A stretch of DNA of 28,186 nt from a virus, in the IMG/VR virus record IMGVR_UViG_3300044712_000105, positions 1 through 28,186 of that record; one strand, given 5' to 3'. Under the pieces are notes generated by a model, which worked only from the letters and a program-made list of their open reading frames with translations, was not told the origin of the DNA and did not search any database. The position numbers and the translations under genes are program-made. Shown one piece after another: positions 21,734 to 26,895 of the stretch (position 1 is the first letter of the stretch; each line of letters begins with the position of its first letter).

Positions 21734-21810
21734 TACAGATTCTATTGTTGGGGGTGGCGGGCGTGATGCTCGCCGTATTTTTTGTAGCTACATGGGGAGT
21801 TTTATTATGA
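21730..21810 (+). CDS. 26-aa single-span membrane peptide
   Basis: ATG overlaps the previous stop, GGGGAGG lies upstream, and the stop overlaps the next start. Nearly all of MIQILLLGVAGVMLAVFFVA is hydrophobic and forms one membrane span. The tight double overlap and the ribosome site support a real gene despite its length. Phage membrane micropeptides can modify host membranes or block superinfection; nothing specific is known here. Confidence 0.55.
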   Translation: MIQILLLGVAGVMLAVFFVATWGVLL

Positions 21811-22004
21811 GATGCCACAGATGTGATGACAAGGTAGCAAAGGCTAGATGGGCATTAGGCTATCGCCTATGCCTAGATTGTGGAGATGAAGTAGCGAGCC
21901 GAGTAGTTCGTTGCGTAGTCCCGATGCACAAAAGCAATTATGTGGCGTGCTTTAACAGGGAGGATTTAGTAGGTATCAATAGCAAAGGAGGGTTAGTGAA
22001 GTGA
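21807..22004 (+). CDS. Small zinc-finger protein
   Basis: ATG at 21807 overlaps the upstream stop and has GGGGAG 7-8 bases before it, giving 65 aa; an upstream in-frame ATG at 21792 is less likely. Cys3/Cys6 (CHRC) and Cys22/Cys25 (CLDC) make a four-cysteine zinc site, followed by VVPMHKSNYVACFNREDLVG, which looks conserved. The spacing is near that of DksA/TraR fingers but the rest does not match. Probably nucleic-acid or polymerase binding; inferred. Confidence 0.7.
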   Translation: MRCHRCDDKVAKARWALGYRLCLDCGDEVASRVVRCVVPMHKSNYVACFNREDLVGINSKGGLVK

Positions 22005-22180
22005 AATGCACTTGTGGGTATATCATAGGACACCCGTTAGTTCCTAAATGCACTTGTAAACCCCTAGACCTAACAGATGAGGAAATAATGCAACTATGGA
22101 TGCAAAAAAATACATTAGGCGGAGCGCAAAACATTGTTGATTTTACTAGAGCAATACTAAGAAAGGCACAAGAGAAATGA
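22001..22180 (+). CDS. 59-aa protein with CxC...CxC site and cassette tail
   Basis: GTG at 22001 overlaps the previous stop (GTGA) and has AAAGGAGGG nine bases upstream; an ATG at 22006 is out of frame. The start KCTCGYIIGHPLVPKCTCKP holds Cys3, Cys5, Cys17 and Cys19, a likely metal site. LTDEEIMQLWMQKN follows and the end is FTRAILRKAQEK. The LTDEEI...RAILRKAQEK portion is shared with the next gene, suggesting duplication. Its last codons are the first copy of the junction repeat. Confidence 0.65.
   Translation: MKCTCGYIIGHPLVPKCTCKPLDLTDEEIMQLWMQKNTLGGAQNIVDFTRAILRKAQEK
22146..22180 (+). repeat. Junction repeat, copy 1
   Basis: A 35-bp sequence identical to 22409-22443, from CTAGAGCAATACTAAG through AAAGGCACAAGAGAAATG to A. 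It encodes RAILRKAQEK at the end of one gene and supplies the ribosome site and ATG of the next. Confidence 0.9.
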
Positions 22181-22443
22181 ACAATGAACCAGTAGCGTGG
22201 AGAATAAAAAACCCACAAATGTTTAATGAATGGATTGTTTTTTCAAACAAAGAACAGGCTTCTTTATATGCTTTTCACAATGGGAAAGGTAATTTAGCTG
22301 AACCACTCTACACCCATCCAGCAAAAACACTAACAGATGAGGAAATAGAAGGCATAGCAAGGGCTAATGTTGATGGTCATTCATCAATGGAGCAGTTGAA
22401 ATGGTTTGCTAGAGCAATACTAAGAAAGGCACAAGAGAAATGA
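22177..22443 (+). CDS. Small early protein with cassette tail (88 aa)
   Basis: Starts at the ATGA overlap with the previous gene. MNNEPVAWRIKNPQMFNEWI and LAEPLYTHPAKTLTDEEIEG are familiar from small phage proteins (EPVAWR..., EPLYTHP, LTDEEI). The C-terminal half LTDEEIEGIARANVDGHSSM through WFARAILRKAQEK parallels that of the upstream 59-aa protein. No enzymatic motif. Function unknown. Confidence 0.75.
   Translation: MNNEPVAWRIKNPQMFNEWIVFSNKEQASLYAFHNGKGNLAEPLYTHPAKTLTDEEIEGIARANVDGHSSMEQLKWFARAILRKAQEK
22409..22443 (+). repeat. Junction repeat, copy 2
   Basis: Identical over 35 bp to copy 1, including bases that code for ARAILRKAQEK and the ATGA stop/start overlap. Confidence 0.9.
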
Positions 22444-22664
22444 ACGTAAATGAACTAGCTGATGAATTAGATAAGTTTTCAGAATTAGGTGGAGATGTAT
22501 TTTTTGGATATTGTGCGGATATGCTACGCCAGCAACAAGCTGAAATAAATGTGTATAGAGAAGCATTAGAAAAATTAGCTAGGCTTGGCAATGGCGATAA
22601 CTATGGAAATAGCATAGGAAACGATATTGCTGTTGATGCACTAAGAAAGGCACAAGAGAAATGA
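22440..22664 (+). CDS. Small helical early protein with cassette tail (74 aa)
   Basis: Starts in the ATGA of the junction repeat. MNVNELADELDKFSELGGDV and YCADMLRQQQAEINVYREAL resemble short phage proteins with NELA-EL and ML-QQQAEI helices. It ends ALRKAQEK in the third copy of the repeat. The N-terminal 60 residues are unrelated to the neighbours, so only the tail is shared. Function unknown. Confidence 0.72.
   Translation: MNVNELADELDKFSELGGDVFFGYCADMLRQQQAEINVYREALEKLARLGNGDNYGNSIGNDIAVDALRKAQEK
22641..22664 (+). repeat. Junction repeat, copy 3
   Basis: 24 bp identical to the 3' part of copies 1 and 2 (CTAAG, AAAGGCACAAGAGAAATG, A). Codes for LRKAQEK and the next ATG. Confidence 0.88.
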
Positions 22665-22804
22665 AAGAAAATACAAAACATGAACTAATGAAGGCTTGTA
22701 TTGATTTTCGTTACGACATGAAAGACATGAATAAATCAGGATGGCTTTACAAGTTTTTTGATTGGTTTTTGAAAAAAGCTGAAAGAAAGGCACAAGAGAA
22801 ATGA
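22661..22804 (+). CDS. 47-aa basic helical protein with cassette tail
   Basis: Starts at the ATGA of the junction repeat and ends in the fourth copy. MKENTKHELMKACIDFRYDM is followed by an aromatic amphipathic stretch (GWLYKFFDWFLKKAERKA) that could lie on a membrane or form a binding helix. The gene is real by its overlaps on both sides. Function unknown. Confidence 0.62.
   Translation: MKENTKHELMKACIDFRYDMKDMNKSGWLYKFFDWFLKKAERKAQEK
22783..22804 (+). repeat. Junction repeat, copy 4
   Basis: 22 bp identical to the other copies (AAG, AAAGGCACAAGAGAAATG, A). Codes for RKAQEK; the bases before it differ (GCTGA instead of a CT junction). Confidence 0.85.
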
Positions 22805-22872
22805 ATTTAGAATATTTTTGTATTTGGGTAGCTATGGCTTTGTTTACTTGGTTGTTATTTACCATACGCTAA
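22801..22872 (+). CDS. 23-aa single-span membrane peptide
   Basis: Starts at the ATGA of junction repeat copy 4; stop TAA at 22870-22872 lies inside copy 5. MNLEYFCIWVAMALFTWLLF is one hydrophobic span. Here the repeat is not in this gene's frame, because the stop comes at its first bases. Support rests on the ribosome site in the repeat and the surrounding pattern; it may also be a spacer. Confidence 0.45.
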   Translation: MNLEYFCIWVAMALFTWLLFTIR

Positions 22873-22892
22873 GAAAGGCACAAGAGAAATGA
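22869..22892 (+). repeat. Junction repeat, copy 5 (non-coding for the upstream gene)
   Basis: 24 bp identical to copy 3. The upstream frame ends at TAA in its first four bases, so the remaining bases are untranslated, yet they are fully conserved and end with the ATG of the gene at 22889. This shows the DNA/RNA sequence, not the peptide, is what is shared. Confidence 0.88.
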
Positions 22893-23128
22893 CTATTAAA
22901 TTATTACGAGATGGGTGTAGTCGCATGACTGTGAAGGAGAACGCAGAGGTAAACAAGAACAGTATTACCCATCTAATCAAGACCTTAGCCACAAGACAGG
23001 AGAAGCGGGACTTGGTAGCTGAGCGCAATCCGTTGCACTATATGTTTGGAGAGTATCTACTGACCCGTAGATATGAGGAGAAGTATGAAGATTTTATCAG
23101 CCGTAACTACATAGGAAGAATCAAATGA
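22889..23128 (+). CDS. Small early protein, possible HTH (79 aa)
   Basis: Its ATG is supplied by junction repeat copy 5, but its own end has no repeat, so it closes the array. MTIKLLRDGCSRMTVKENAE, VNKNSITHLIKTLATRQE could form a helix-turn-helix (MTVKENAEVNKNSITHLI), followed by a basic and aromatic C-terminus (HYMFGEYLLTRRYEEKYEDF). DNA binding is a guess from this pattern. Confidence 0.65.
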   Translation: MTIKLLRDGCSRMTVKENAEVNKNSITHLIKTLATRQEKRDLVAERNPLHYMFGEYLLTRRYEEKYEDFISRNYIGRIK

Positions 23129-23481: not shown

Positions 23482-23517
23482 GTAGTATAAGTAGTTAATT
23501 TAAACCTATGTCCCAAT

Positions 23518-23532
23518 TCGGGACAGTCCCGA
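23518..23532. promoter_or_regulatory. TCGGGACAGTCCCGA palindrome, copy 6
   Basis: Perfect copy, A at the centre, symmetric over 17 bp (TTCGGG to CCCGAA). It lies in the leader 11 nt before the ATG at 23544 and runs directly into the AAAGG ribosome site, so an RNA hairpin or bound protein here could block ribosome loading. Confidence 0.82.
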
Positions 23533-23543
23533 AAGGAAACAAA

Positions 23544-24434
23544 ATGGAAACAACATTAGATGTATCAAGCGACTACGCTTATTCAAAAATTAGTAGTAGT
23601 GCGATGCTCGTTGATTTGAGCATTAGTGTTTGGACTGGTAGGAAACTGGATAAAAATGTATCTGCTGAAGTAGATGCAAGTAAAAACACAAAGGGTAAGG
23701 CGGGCAACTACCACAAGAATCTTTTGGCTGGGTCGGAGAAACTTGCGGAGATAGGGAAACTATCATCTTCTATCCGCAACTGGAGCTATTCCCAAACTTC
23801 GCCATGGTCAGACGCAGGCTCACGCCTACTACCCTCAACTCTTTTCTTTGATTACAAAGCGAAGCTCACAGAATACGAAAAGATGTTTACAGATAAGGTT
23901 ACAGAGTTTTTGGCTGAATACGATGTCCTTGTTTCTAAAGCAGCTTTTCAGTTAGGCGACCTATTTAACAGGGAGGATTACCCCGCCGTTGAGAAGGTTG
24001 CTCAGAAGTTTGGAATGTTTTACACCTTTAGTCCTGTCCCCGAAGCGGGCGATTTCAGGGTTGATATTGGCGAAGCGGGTATGAAGGAATTACAGGAACG
24101 CTACGCTGACGCATACAGTCGGCGGTTGAACGACTCTATGAAAGATGTATGGGAACGATTGCACGATGCCCTGTCTAAGATGTCGGAACGCTTTGACTAC
24201 GATGGCTCAGGCGCTAAGAAGATATTTAGGGATAGCCTTGTCGAGAACGCACAAGAGTTATGTGGCTTGCTCAAACACCTAAACATTACAGGAGATATGC
24301 AGATGGAGAATATCCGCAAGGATTTAGAAGCACGCTTAATTGGTTGTAGTGCTGAAGATTTTAGGGAAGACCATGCCTTGCGTATATCAACGAAGCAAGC
24401 AGTAGATGAGATGCTAAAGAAGTTCAGCATATGA
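23544..24434 (+). CDS. DUF3150-like protein of the MoxR/VWA set
   Basis: ATG 23544 follows AAAGG and gives 296 aa; an earlier in-frame start at 23508 would have to read through the palindrome and lacks a ribosome site. The pattern LVDLSISVWTGRKLDKNVSA, then KGKAGNYHKNLLAGSEKL and WSDAGSRLLPSTLFFDYKAK, followed by long helices, matches what I recall of DUF3150, a family found beside CobS/MoxR-type ATPases and VWA proteins in phages and plasmids. It is the first gene of that set here. Probably a partner or substrate adaptor; the biochemical role is unknown. Confidence 0.78.
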   Translation: METTLDVSSDYAYSKISSSAMLVDLSISVWTGRKLDKNVSAEVDASKNTKGKAGNYHKNLLAGSEKLAEIGKLSSSIRNWSYSQTSPWSDAGSRLLPSTLFFDYKAKLTEYEKMFTDKVTEFLAEYDVLVSKAAFQLGDLFNREDYPAVEKVAQKFGMFYTFSPVPEAGDFRVDIGEAGMKELQERYADAYSRRLNDSMKDVWERLHDALSKMSERFDYDGSGAKKIFRDSLVENAQELCGLLKHLNITGDMQMENIRKDLEARLIGCSAEDFREDHALRISTKQAVDEMLKKFSI

Positions 24435-24652
24435 AAGTAGGTGATTGGGTATTAACGGATGGGGAGATTGGTCAAATAACTTTGCTTGACTACTTTAAAA
24501 CTAGAACAAGTCGCTGGCATTTGGTTGATGTCCCCAGTTTAGGCTTTGCATCATTAAGAAGTGAATCGGGAATGTCCCGAATAGAACCAGCAGTATCAGA
24601 TATTTTAAACGCAGTAAAAACAAACGAGGAAAATCAAAATGGAATTATATAA
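24431..24652 (+). CDS. Small protein within the ATPase operon (73 aa)
   Basis: Start overlaps the upstream stop (ATGA) and its end overlaps the ATPase start by 14 bp, so it is part of the operon. MKVGDWVLTDGEIGQITLLD looks like a small SH3-like beta barrel start (KVGDWV...GEIGQI). The central ESGMSRIEP is encoded by palindrome copy 7. Function unknown. Confidence 0.7.
   Translation: MKVGDWVLTDGEIGQITLLDYFKTRTSRWHLVDVPSLGFASLRSESGMSRIEPAVSDILNAVKTNEENQNGII
24566..24580. promoter_or_regulatory. TCGGGAATGTCCCGA palindrome, copy 7 (14/15), inside a gene
   Basis: One mismatch (A for C at position 7), T at the centre. It lies within the 73-aa gene, 58 nt before the ATPase ATG. Its presence inside coding sequence suggests selection for the site or a recent insertion. 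Confidence 0.6.
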
Positions 24653-25706
24653 ATCAGTATCACTACAAGAGTGCGCTAACTTAATCGGTGCAGTCGGCTC
24701 AGAAGTAACAGTCCTAGCACAAGGCGAGATGGGTATTGGCAAGTCATCAATGCTCAAGATGTTACAGGGTAAATTCCCTGACCACTTTGTATGTTATGGC
24801 GACATGACTACTAAGGATGTAGGCGACTTTCTTGTGCCGAAAATTAAAGACATCAATGGTGTCGAGGTAACTAGCTTTATTCCCAATGAGGAGTTCGGCT
24901 TTCATCATGGCAAACCGATTGTCTTAATGCTTGACGAGATTGGTAAGGCAAGTAAGGGTGTTATGAACGCTTGTTTACGCTTGATGCTTGAACGCAAGCT
25001 AGGCACTTATGCTTTGCCCGAAGGTTCGATTGTGTTTGCGACTACTAACTTAGCCAGCGAGGGTATCGGTGATATGTTGCCCCCTCATGCACGCAATCGT
25101 ATGTCGGTAGTAAAAGTTCGCAAGCCAACAGCAGACGAGTGGATTGACTGGGCTTTGGACAATGACATCGCACCCGAAGTAATTATGACTGTCAAAGAAT
25201 TCCCTATGATGCTTGCATCATTCGAGGAGTATGTAGATAGCAAGGACAATGAGTATATCTATGACCCACGCACGCCACGCCCTAGCTTTGTAACACCACG
25301 CAGTTTAGATAAGGCTAGTGCGATTCTCAAGGCTACCCGAGGTTTGTCCGAAGATGTTATTGGTTGTGCAATCAAAGGCACAATCGGCGCACGGGCTTGC
25401 TACGATATGCTCAACATCGTGAAGTTATCTAGCGACTTGCCATCATGGGAATCTATTATGGACAGTCCCGAAAAGGCTCAGCTACCTGAATCACCTGCGG
25501 CTGTATGTATGCTTGTGTATTCAGCAGTTCAGCGTGTCGAGAAGGACACCATCAACAAGTGGATTAAGTATATGTCCCGTATCAGTAAGGAAGCACAGGG
25601 TCTATTCGCCACTAGCGTGATGCGAACCAGTAAGAAGTCAGTAGTTGGCACAAGCACAGAGTTCGTGAAGTGGGCTACTGCTAATAACTATTTGTTTGCA
25701 CAATAA
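24639..25706 (+). CDS. MoxR/CobS-type AAA+ ATPase
   Basis: Encodes 355 aa with GAGGA before the ATG. Walker A is GEMGIGKS (residues 29-36), Walker B LMLDE (96-100), sensor 1 ATTN (134-137) and a likely arginine finger in PPHARNRM (148-155). The order and the FATTN/HARNRM motifs fit the MoxR/CobS branch. These ATPases form hexamers that remodel or load partners together with VWA proteins, as CobS-CobT and MoxR-VWA do. The VWA gene follows 10 bp later, supporting a joint machine. The target in this phage is unknown; a metal chelatase role is unlikely without a CobN-like subunit. Confidence 0.88.
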   Translation: MELYKSVSLQECANLIGAVGSEVTVLAQGEMGIGKSSMLKMLQGKFPDHFVCYGDMTTKDVGDFLVPKIKDINGVEVTSFIPNEEFGFHHGKPIVLMLDEIGKASKGVMNACLRLMLERKLGTYALPEGSIVFATTNLASEGIGDMLPPHARNRMSVVKVRKPTADEWIDWALDNDIAPEVIMTVKEFPMMLASFEEYVDSKDNEYIYDPRTPRPSFVTPRSLDKASAILKATRGLSEDVIGCAIKGTIGARACYDMLNIVKLSSDLPSWESIMDSPEKAQLPESPAAVCMLVYSAVQRVEKDTINKWIKYMSRISKEAQGLFATSVMRTSKKSVVGTSTEFVKWATANNYLFAQ

Positions 25707-25716
25707 GGAGTAAGTC

Positions 25717-26895
25717 ATGCTTACAACAGCAAAGAATCTTACACAAGAACAACGGATTGAACGCTGTCATATTGACCTGATGAAGTCCCCGCAATTCGTT
25801 GCATATAGTGGTGTGTTGATGGTCGGTAGCGTGAAGGTCGAGTCAGACCCTAGCAAATGCCCGACTGCATACACTAATGGTCGTGATGTAGTGTATGGGC
25901 GTGACTTTATTGCTACGCTTAGCGATGCCCAGTTGCGTGCAGTTATCTTGCACGAGAACAAGCACAAGATGTATCGCCATATATCTACATGGAAACATCT
26001 ATGGAAACAAAACCCTAGCAAAGCCAATCGTGCTTGCGACTATGTGATTAACTTGGAGATTGTCGATGAAGGCAAAAAGACAAATGGATTTATACAATTA
26101 CCTAGCAACGGGTTGTATGACGAGAAGTATCGTGGGCTTAACTCAGCAGAAGTATTTGCGTTACTCGATGATGACGATGCGGGGGGAGAGGGCGGTGGTC
26201 TTGACGAGCATGGTTGGGAAGATGCCGAGTCTATGTCCGAGGAAGAAAAGCAAGAGCTGGGTAAGCAGATAGACCAAGCCATCAGGCAAGGTGCAATCCT
26301 AGCGGGTAAGGTAGGCGGTGATATAGATAGATGCTTTACCGACTTGATGTCAGCTAAGGTGAATTGGAAAGATGCCTTGCGTGAGTTCGTATCATCAGTA
26401 TGTAAAGGTAAAGATGATTCTACATGGGCTAAACCTAATCGCCGTTGGCTACAACATGATGTGTATATGCCTAGCACCATCAGCGAAACAATGGGTCGTA
26501 TTGTTGTAGCAGTAGATACATCAGGTTCTATTGATGGTCGTGCAGTTAATCGTTTTCTGTCCGAGGTAGTAGCAATCATGAACAATGTGAATCCCGAGTT
26601 AGTGGACTTGCTCTACTGGGATAGCGCAGTAGCAGGGCATGAGGTGTATGGTCAGGGTGATGGCGACAAGCTAATGACTTCTACTAAACCTAAGGGTGGC
26701 GGTGGCACAAGCCCATCATGTATTACTACATACCTTAAAGATAAGAACATTGTCCCTGAGTGTGTAGTTGTGCTTACCGATGGTTATGTAGGTGATGACT
26801 GGGGTGGCACATGGACTAGCCCTGTGTTGTGGTGCATTGTCGGTGGTTGCAAGGCAGTCCCAACAGTAGGTCAATCAATTCATATGGAGGACTAA
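25717..26895 (+). CDS. VWA protein with metallopeptidase-like domain (DUF2201-like)
   Basis: Encodes 392 aa with AGGAG before the ATG. The N-terminal domain has HENKH (residues 79-83), a perfect HExxH zinc-protease motif in AVILHENKHKMYRH, followed by ACDYVINLEIVDEG. An acidic, Gly-rich linker (150-170) and a helical part (175-230) lead to a VWA domain with MIDAS motifs DTSGS (267-271), GGTS (329-332) and TDG (355-357). This combination matches the predicted metallopeptidase plus VWA family often paired with MoxR ATPases. It probably binds metal and protein partners and acts with the ATPase; protease activity is only predicted. Confidence 0.88.
   Translation: MLTTAKNLTQEQRIERCHIDLMKSPQFVAYSGVLMVGSVKVESDPSKCPTAYTNGRDVVYGRDFIATLSDAQLRAVILHENKHKMYRHISTWKHLWKQNPSKANRACDYVINLEIVDEGKKTNGFIQLPSNGLYDEKYRGLNSAEVFALLDDDDAGGEGGGLDEHGWEDAESMSEEEKQELGKQIDQAIRQGAILAGKVGGDIDRCFTDLMSAKVNWKDALREFVSSVCKGKDDSTWAKPNRRWLQHDVYMPSTISETMGRIVVAVDTSGSIDGRAVNRFLSEVVAIMNNVNPELVDLLYWDSAVAGHEVYGQGDGDKLMTSTKPKGGGGTSPSCITTYLKDKNIVPECVVVLTDGYVGDDWGGTWTSPVLWCIVGGCKAVPTVGQSIHMED

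Follow-up and report, generated by a model that had tools for sequence, protein, structure and literature searches.

The mosaicism of phage genomes is usually put down to illegitimate recombination, and shared boundary sequences have rarely been found (PMC3029335). Lambdoid phages feature such boundaries, i.e., short homology that coincides exactly with the borders of the modules exchanged (PMC3029335). Cluster K mycobacteriophages carry 11-19 copies of start-associated sequences per genome, which represent GGGATAGGAGCCC with a strong Shine-Dalgarno AGGAG core, belong to non-structural genes and feature inverted repeats in about half of the cases (PMC3203893). For T4-type phages, mobile regulatory cassettes have been described (Arbiol et al., 2010, cited in PMC4177764), which are reported to combine an early promoter with a stem-loop and whose repeated intergenic sequence reportedly mediates the shuffling of small genes. 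Integron arrays are made up of small genes that lack promoters, are separated by a common site and are gained or lost singly.

The array of tiny phage genes described here, joined by one conserved sequence termed the seam, can be compared with each of these systems. As in the lambdoid phages, short homology is found exactly at the module edges; in contrast to them, a single sequence recurs at the junctions of many tiny genes in a row, includes stop/start signals and occurs across unrelated lineages. Like the start-associated sequences, the seam is a short asymmetric repeat situated few bases from the ATG of unrelated genes in one orientation. However, the seam AAAGGCACAAGAGAAATGA does not match their consensus with its AGGAG core and pairs only weakly with the 16S rRNA, and it additionally encodes the end of the previous gene and is a place where cassette exchange is seen. 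Unlike the T4-type cassettes, it features neither promoter nor stem-loop, with only sigma-70-type promoters having been searched for. The array resembles an integron in all the features named above, yet no integrase was found (0/43 seam-bearing records, which may be fragments) and no folded attC-like site was found in the seam. The nearest relatives in kind are the start-associated sequences and the T4-type mobile regulatory cassettes. Recombination at boundary sequences is an already known idea; this seam is apparently undescribed, as no description was found in the open-access literature searched.

Layout of the array and anatomy of the seam

The window, i.e., the whole stretch of DNA analysed (28,186 nt, virus record G000), contains terminase, portal and head genes that point leftward (~10-19 kb), and the array is situated among rightward non-structural genes. 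Its features are as follows:

21792..22004, + strand: left backbone gene, 70 aa, ending in ...GGLVK; orthologues (78-79%) in L126-L128
22001..22180, + strand: cassette gene 1, 59 aa, GTG start, ending in LTDEEI-v2-FTRAILRKAQEK; taken from the ORF list
22070-22087, + strand: LTDEEI block of cassette gene 1
22162..22180, + strand: seam copy 1 (AAAGGCACAAGAGAAATGA), the longer identical form beginning at 22146
22177..22443, + strand: cassette gene 2, 88 aa, MNNEPVAW-v1-PLYTHPAKTLTDEEI-v2-FARAILRKAQEK
22303..22347, + strand: in-gene seam block CCACTCTACACCCATCCAGCAAAAACACTAACAGATGAGGAAATA of gene 2, coding for PLYTHPAKTLTDEEI
22425..22443, + strand: seam copy 2
22440..22664, + strand: cassette gene 3, 74 aa, MNxNELADEL...MLRQQQAEI type
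~22521-22548, + strand: QQQAEI block of cassette gene 3
22646..22664, + strand: seam copy 3
22661..22804, + strand: cassette gene 4, 47 aa, one weak relative among the fetched loci
22786..22804, + strand: seam copy 4
22801..22872, + strand: cassette ORF 5, 23 aa, hydrophobic (MNLEYFCIWVAMALFTWLLFTIR), TAA stop within the extended seam
22874..22892, + strand: seam copy 5, its ATG being the start of the 79-aa backbone gene
22889..23128, + strand: right backbone gene, 79 aa, MTIKLLRDG...; orthologues (80-89%) in L126-L128

Five exact copies of AAAGGCACAAGAGAAATG are present on the + strand (22162, 22425, 22646, 22786, and 22874). No further copy was detected in the window at ≤3 mismatches, a threshold at which 0.06 copies are expected, and none of 100 shuffles reached five. 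The initial annotation, made from sequence alone, had claimed five junction copies, which held; the starts it gave (22146, 22409, 22641, 22783, and 22869) are those of longer shared runs. The claimed identity of 22-35 bp was partly confirmed, the exact runs shared between copy pairs being 22-37 bp. In all five cases, the following ORF takes its ATG from the seam. It also held that copies 1-4 code for the RKAQEK end of the upstream gene, whose TGA shares bases with the ATG that follows (ATGA), and that the frame upstream of the fifth copy, the 23-aa ORF, stops first at a TAA. The intervening genes are mostly unrelated as claimed, except that cassette genes 1 and 2 have a carboxy-terminal module in common (LTDEEI...FARAILRKAQEK); for gene 1, relatives were found for this carboxy-terminal part only.

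In 316 distinct sites, the conserved core spans positions -15 to +3 relative to the ATG, and conservation ends sharply after ATGA. Where the upstream gene lacks a RAIL tail, TAAG at -19 to -16 is ~70-75% conserved; where this tail is present, conservation reaches ~-35. In one frame, the seam encodes (L)RKAQEK-TGA (275 sites); another offers a TAA stop (19 sites if upstream ORFs of ≥20 codons are considered), and the remaining frame runs on into the following gene as KKGTREM (5 sites). The seam is a DNA adaptor of 19-23 nt, with a longer form of ~39 nt, which combines stop and start and is common to the tandem small-gene cassettes of numerous tailed phages. The ribosome site attributed to it was only partly confirmed. 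The seam pairs only weakly with the 16S tail (-3.3 vs. about -7 to -9 kcal/mol at other starts), and therefore translation likely starts by reinitiation or translational coupling at the ATGA overlap, which is an inference. Neither an inverted repeat nor a fold was found in the 24-nt seam, nor any promoter-like site within the array (sigma-70 type only searched). A promoter or hairpin function of the seam was rejected, neither being seen.

Conservation and spread of the seam

The nucleotides of the seam are conserved beyond the encoded peptide, as the initial annotation had stated. In a set of proteins fetched by protein similarity and not by the motif, the codons of FARAILRKAQEK, the commonest tail, are near-fixed (GCA 54/54, AGA 50/50, AAG 53/55, AAA 51/51), compared to a genomic usage of 0.32 for GCA, 0.24 for AGA and 0.46 for AAG. 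The codons of the LTDEEI block are near-fixed likewise in the same set. This sample is not independent by descent, and the parts between the conserved tracts are unalignable. Furthermore, 40 distinct sites are non-coding in the RKAQEK frame, 28 of them being exact, and CACAAGAGAA, which is unpaired with the 16S end, is equally conserved. Selection on the peptide alone was rejected on account of the frozen codons and the 28 exact non-coding copies.

The exact 19-mer occurs in at least 120 IMG/VR viral stretches. At ≤3 mismatches, 420 copies (311 exact) were found in 208 loci, compared to 0-10 for shuffled motifs. These loci were sampled through the seam itself or its main protein family and are all assembled contigs. 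The seam starts 406 ORFs, representing 325 distinct proteins and 189 families, and is restricted to one strand in each of 43 whole records (reversed control 0). In a start-adjacent k-mer scan of all loci, it preceded 155 distinct amino termini; the runner-up among comparable seams, the sister form AAAGCGAGTGAGAAATG (KASEK), preceded 12. The 20 terminases from seam-bearing records fall into seven groups at 50% identity and five at 30%; at least seven terminase groups carry the seam, which is therefore not the trait of a single lineage. Among named or isolate phage records, only the circular MW202753.1 from Manatee Spring features the seam (two copies), and searching phage proteins with gene 2 returned no match. 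In GTDB genomes, the exact motif was restricted to seven short MAG contigs, which are likely binned viral contigs; they belong to incompatible phyla, so that a host cannot be assigned.

Further observations concern individual loci. The sister seam AAAGCGAGTGAGAAATGA (KASEK tail) was recorded at L040:9772-10228, L203:244-1023 and nine other loci, with 12 distinct amino termini. Two separate seam sites lie in one record in G042 (the record of L100/L239; 31074 and 41147) and in G024 (the record of L096; 15436 and 79294), which could possibly permit exchange within a genome. Seams are also located before larger genes at array ends (L053:5381-7363, L119:2452-3099, L217:5216-6082), and the larger seam-preceded proteins scanned include a DNA polymerase A (L053), a YqaJ exonuclease, and a radical SAM protein. 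Regarding the cassette proteins, only few are named by Pfam and PHROGs, and PADLOC matches were incidental. A fold search with gene 2 gave weak matches, chiefly to uncharacterised proteins of uncultured phages.

These data bear on the explanation that one ancestral gene was duplicated in tandem and diverged, the tail being kept for a peptide function. It is in line with the module common to genes 1 and 2, with FARAILRKAQEK being the commonest tail and with inner blocks that frame strands and helices in a structural model. Nevertheless, this explanation is all but excluded: 189 families follow the seam, including DNA polymerase A, YqaJ exonuclease, and the radical SAM protein, codons are frozen next to unalignable intervening parts, and exact copies lie outside the coding frame. 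A fixed gene order with diverging junctions, which would have argued for duplication, was looked for and the opposite was found, i.e., a constant junction with differing genes.

Exchange at seams and within genes

Cassette exchange at seams is shown by the comparison of relatives; recombination itself was not directly observed, no read data being at hand. In L126-L128, close relatives of the window with ~78-89% amino acid identity in the two flanking genes, a gene ending in GG(L/I)VK abuts a 79-aa gene starting with (M/V)TIK, and the window holds its 0.9-kb array exactly at this empty site. The empty site of L126 and the seam end have GAAATGA in common, and in L128 a seam array is located ~10 kb further on. 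Compared to L195/L199, L203 contains one extra seam-bounded cassette, next to which the sequence is 98% identical on the upstream side and, for L195, 100% identical on the downstream side. Six seams are present in L111 where L100 has one, a difference of five cassettes between flanks of 92% and 95% identity. Gain and loss cannot be distinguished for any of these differences. The loci compared include relatives that lack the array, near-identical contigs differing by whole cassettes, and genes that recur beside changing neighbours and whose identity stops at the seam. As a separate observation, the array's genome site in L129 (8893-9320) is occupied by three tiny genes, each of which ends in KESK, and the short seam found there, AAGGAATCAAATGA, is another one.

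For the 206 pairs that share a cassette and have comparable sequence upstream, upstream identity ended at the seam, 10-23 nt from the ATG, in 43 and at the longer RAIL form (28-50 nt) in 50 pairs, continued past 120 nt in 109 and ended in between in four. Downstream identity stopped right at the TGA of the seam in 48/97 pairs. These pairs are partly non-independent, some contigs being close relatives. Relative to random positions, edges of between-contig similarity are enriched 6.8-fold at seams and 2.4-fold at other gene starts scored against the same background, a ratio of 3.0 (bootstrap 95% 2.1-4.5). A crude comparison of breakpoints with random gene starts gave a weak result (57 vs. 44 expected). 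More than one left side was found for 34 of the 72 right-hand sequences seen more than once, and more than one right side for 38/64 left-hand sequences.

Mixed neighbourhoods could also represent chimeras of metagenome assembly joined at short repeats, as the breaks coincide with repeats and many adjacencies were seen only once. However, 36 adjacencies recur in different metagenomes, some of them as whole arrays of three to five seams in the same order, which argues against chimeras. The repeats are short, and the insertion in L203 is flanked on both sides by L195-like sequence. Chimeras are thereby all but excluded as a general explanation; a chimeric origin remains possible for single adjacencies, e.g., the L229/L234 switch and the right seam of L203.

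Exchange is not restricted to the gene ends. When 18-mers were screened for varied sequence to their left and right, the top ranks held only members of this system, i.e., the gene-end seam, MNNEPVAW, LYTHP, AKTLTDEEI, FARAIL, MNANEL, and RQQQAEI. The in-gene block CCACTCTACACCCATCCAGCAAAAACACTAACAGATGAGGAAATA is near-identical at the DNA level in 72 complete EPVAW-v1-PLYTHPAKTLTDEEI-v2-FARAIL genes, whose v1 and v2 parts differ. Within this set, three unrelated v1 halves precede one and the same v2 half (98-100% nucleotide identity), and several v2 halves are found with each of six v1 halves. The v2 half of window gene 2 is common to L165-L167, where it follows other v1 halves; its identity to that of L165/L166 is 91%. 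The comparison supports the view that conserved in-gene blocks are further swap points at which half-genes join different partners. In the predicted model of gene 2 (pLDDT 83), the constant blocks lie in strands and helices framing the variable parts, so that a structural role of these blocks is conceivable.

On the basis of these edges, a role of the seam as a mere translation-control site can be evaluated, with cassettes moving by ordinary illegitimate recombination and breaks being seen at gene edges merely as a result of the survival of intact genes. This is suggested by the location exactly at start codons with AAAGG at a plausible Shine-Dalgarno distance, by the precedent of the start-associated sequences and by edges being enriched, less strongly, at ordinary gene starts too. 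Still, it is considered unlikely: 16S pairing is weak, CACAAGAGAA does not pair and is conserved to the same degree, the enrichment of edges at seams is threefold that at other gene starts, and inner blocks far from starts behave alike. Selection for translation may possibly add to the conservation of the seam, as proposed for start-associated sequences (PMC3203893).

Proposed mechanism and implications

The preferred reading, held to be likely (probability roughly 0.72), is that shared seams let annealing or homologous recombination add, remove and replace cassettes. The seam would close the upstream frame (RKAQEK-TGA or TAA) and open the next gene via a weak Shine-Dalgarno sequence and ATGA. 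With the same seam at both cassette ends, general or phage annealing recombination might occur between any two seams, by which whole cassettes would be added, lost or replaced and reading frames would stay translatable. The blocks MNNEPVAW, PLYTHPAKTLTDEEI, QQQAEI, and FARAIL would serve as extra crossover points for the recombination of gene halves. The benefit may be a rapid sampling of small genes, probably for host takeover or anti-defence. Both the recombination enzyme and this benefit are inferred, and exchange by homologous recombination, as at lambdoid boundaries, rests on comparative evidence only. Accordingly, the cassette reading of the initial annotation is largely supported, with homologous recombination as its cause remaining an inference; stops in two frames, swap blocks within genes and the weakness of the start signal had been missed.

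No tyrosine or serine recombinase was detected in 43 seam-bearing records, the controls of the search being positive, though records may be fragments. Because no site-specific recombinase was found, homologous or annealing recombination at seams is regarded as the best mechanism, which is inferred and not shown. Twenty-odd nucleotides are short for RecA-type exchange and usable by phage annealing proteins. ERF occurs in 11/43 records, RecT in one and a YqaJ exonuclease in five; with ERF or RecT being detected in only 12/43 records, the enzyme is unidentified in most. Alternatively, an unrecognised dedicated enzyme could act on the seam in an integron-like phage system, for which strict conservation, one orientation, tandem arrays and the gain or loss of single cassettes might be put forward. 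This is very unlikely, given that no tyrosine or serine recombinase was detected in the 43 records, a seam without inverted repeat or fold, and inner blocks of quite different sequence which are also crossover points.

Recombination at shared seams can be extended to a bolder reading, which we would neither favor nor dismiss. Here, a nested alphabet of constant DNA blocks, the gene-end seam and the in-gene blocks, would act as an exchange standard across unrelated lineages of uncultured phages and open a pool of small genes and half-genes to every phage with a single seam. If true, combinatorial protein diversity would arise without a dedicated recombinase. Phages seem to hold a simple plug-in system for trying small genes, with a natural adaptor design for joining genes without breaking translation. 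As a large natural set with one known boundary of ~20 nt, the seams make homology-directed shuffling measurable from genomes and testable in the laboratory. Moreover, the seam offers a search key for the many tiny phage genes without a known function, among which host-takeover proteins are thought to be plentiful.

Two minor observations refer to the rightward region of the window. Around the rightward genes, nine copies of the palindrome TCGGGACWGTCCCGA are found at ≤2 mismatches, compared to 0.19 expected (+ strand; 19234, 19823, 20375, 21099, 21510, 23518, 24566, 25457, and 27664), and exact copies elsewhere are restricted to the relatives L126, L127, and L128. Judged from its appearance, the palindrome may serve this phage group as an operator or as another type of regulatory repeat. 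In addition, positions 23508-26895 contain a DUF3150-like gene (weak match), an AAA ATPase and a DUF2201 metallopeptidase/VWA gene in a row, which represent a MoxR/VWA-type trio.
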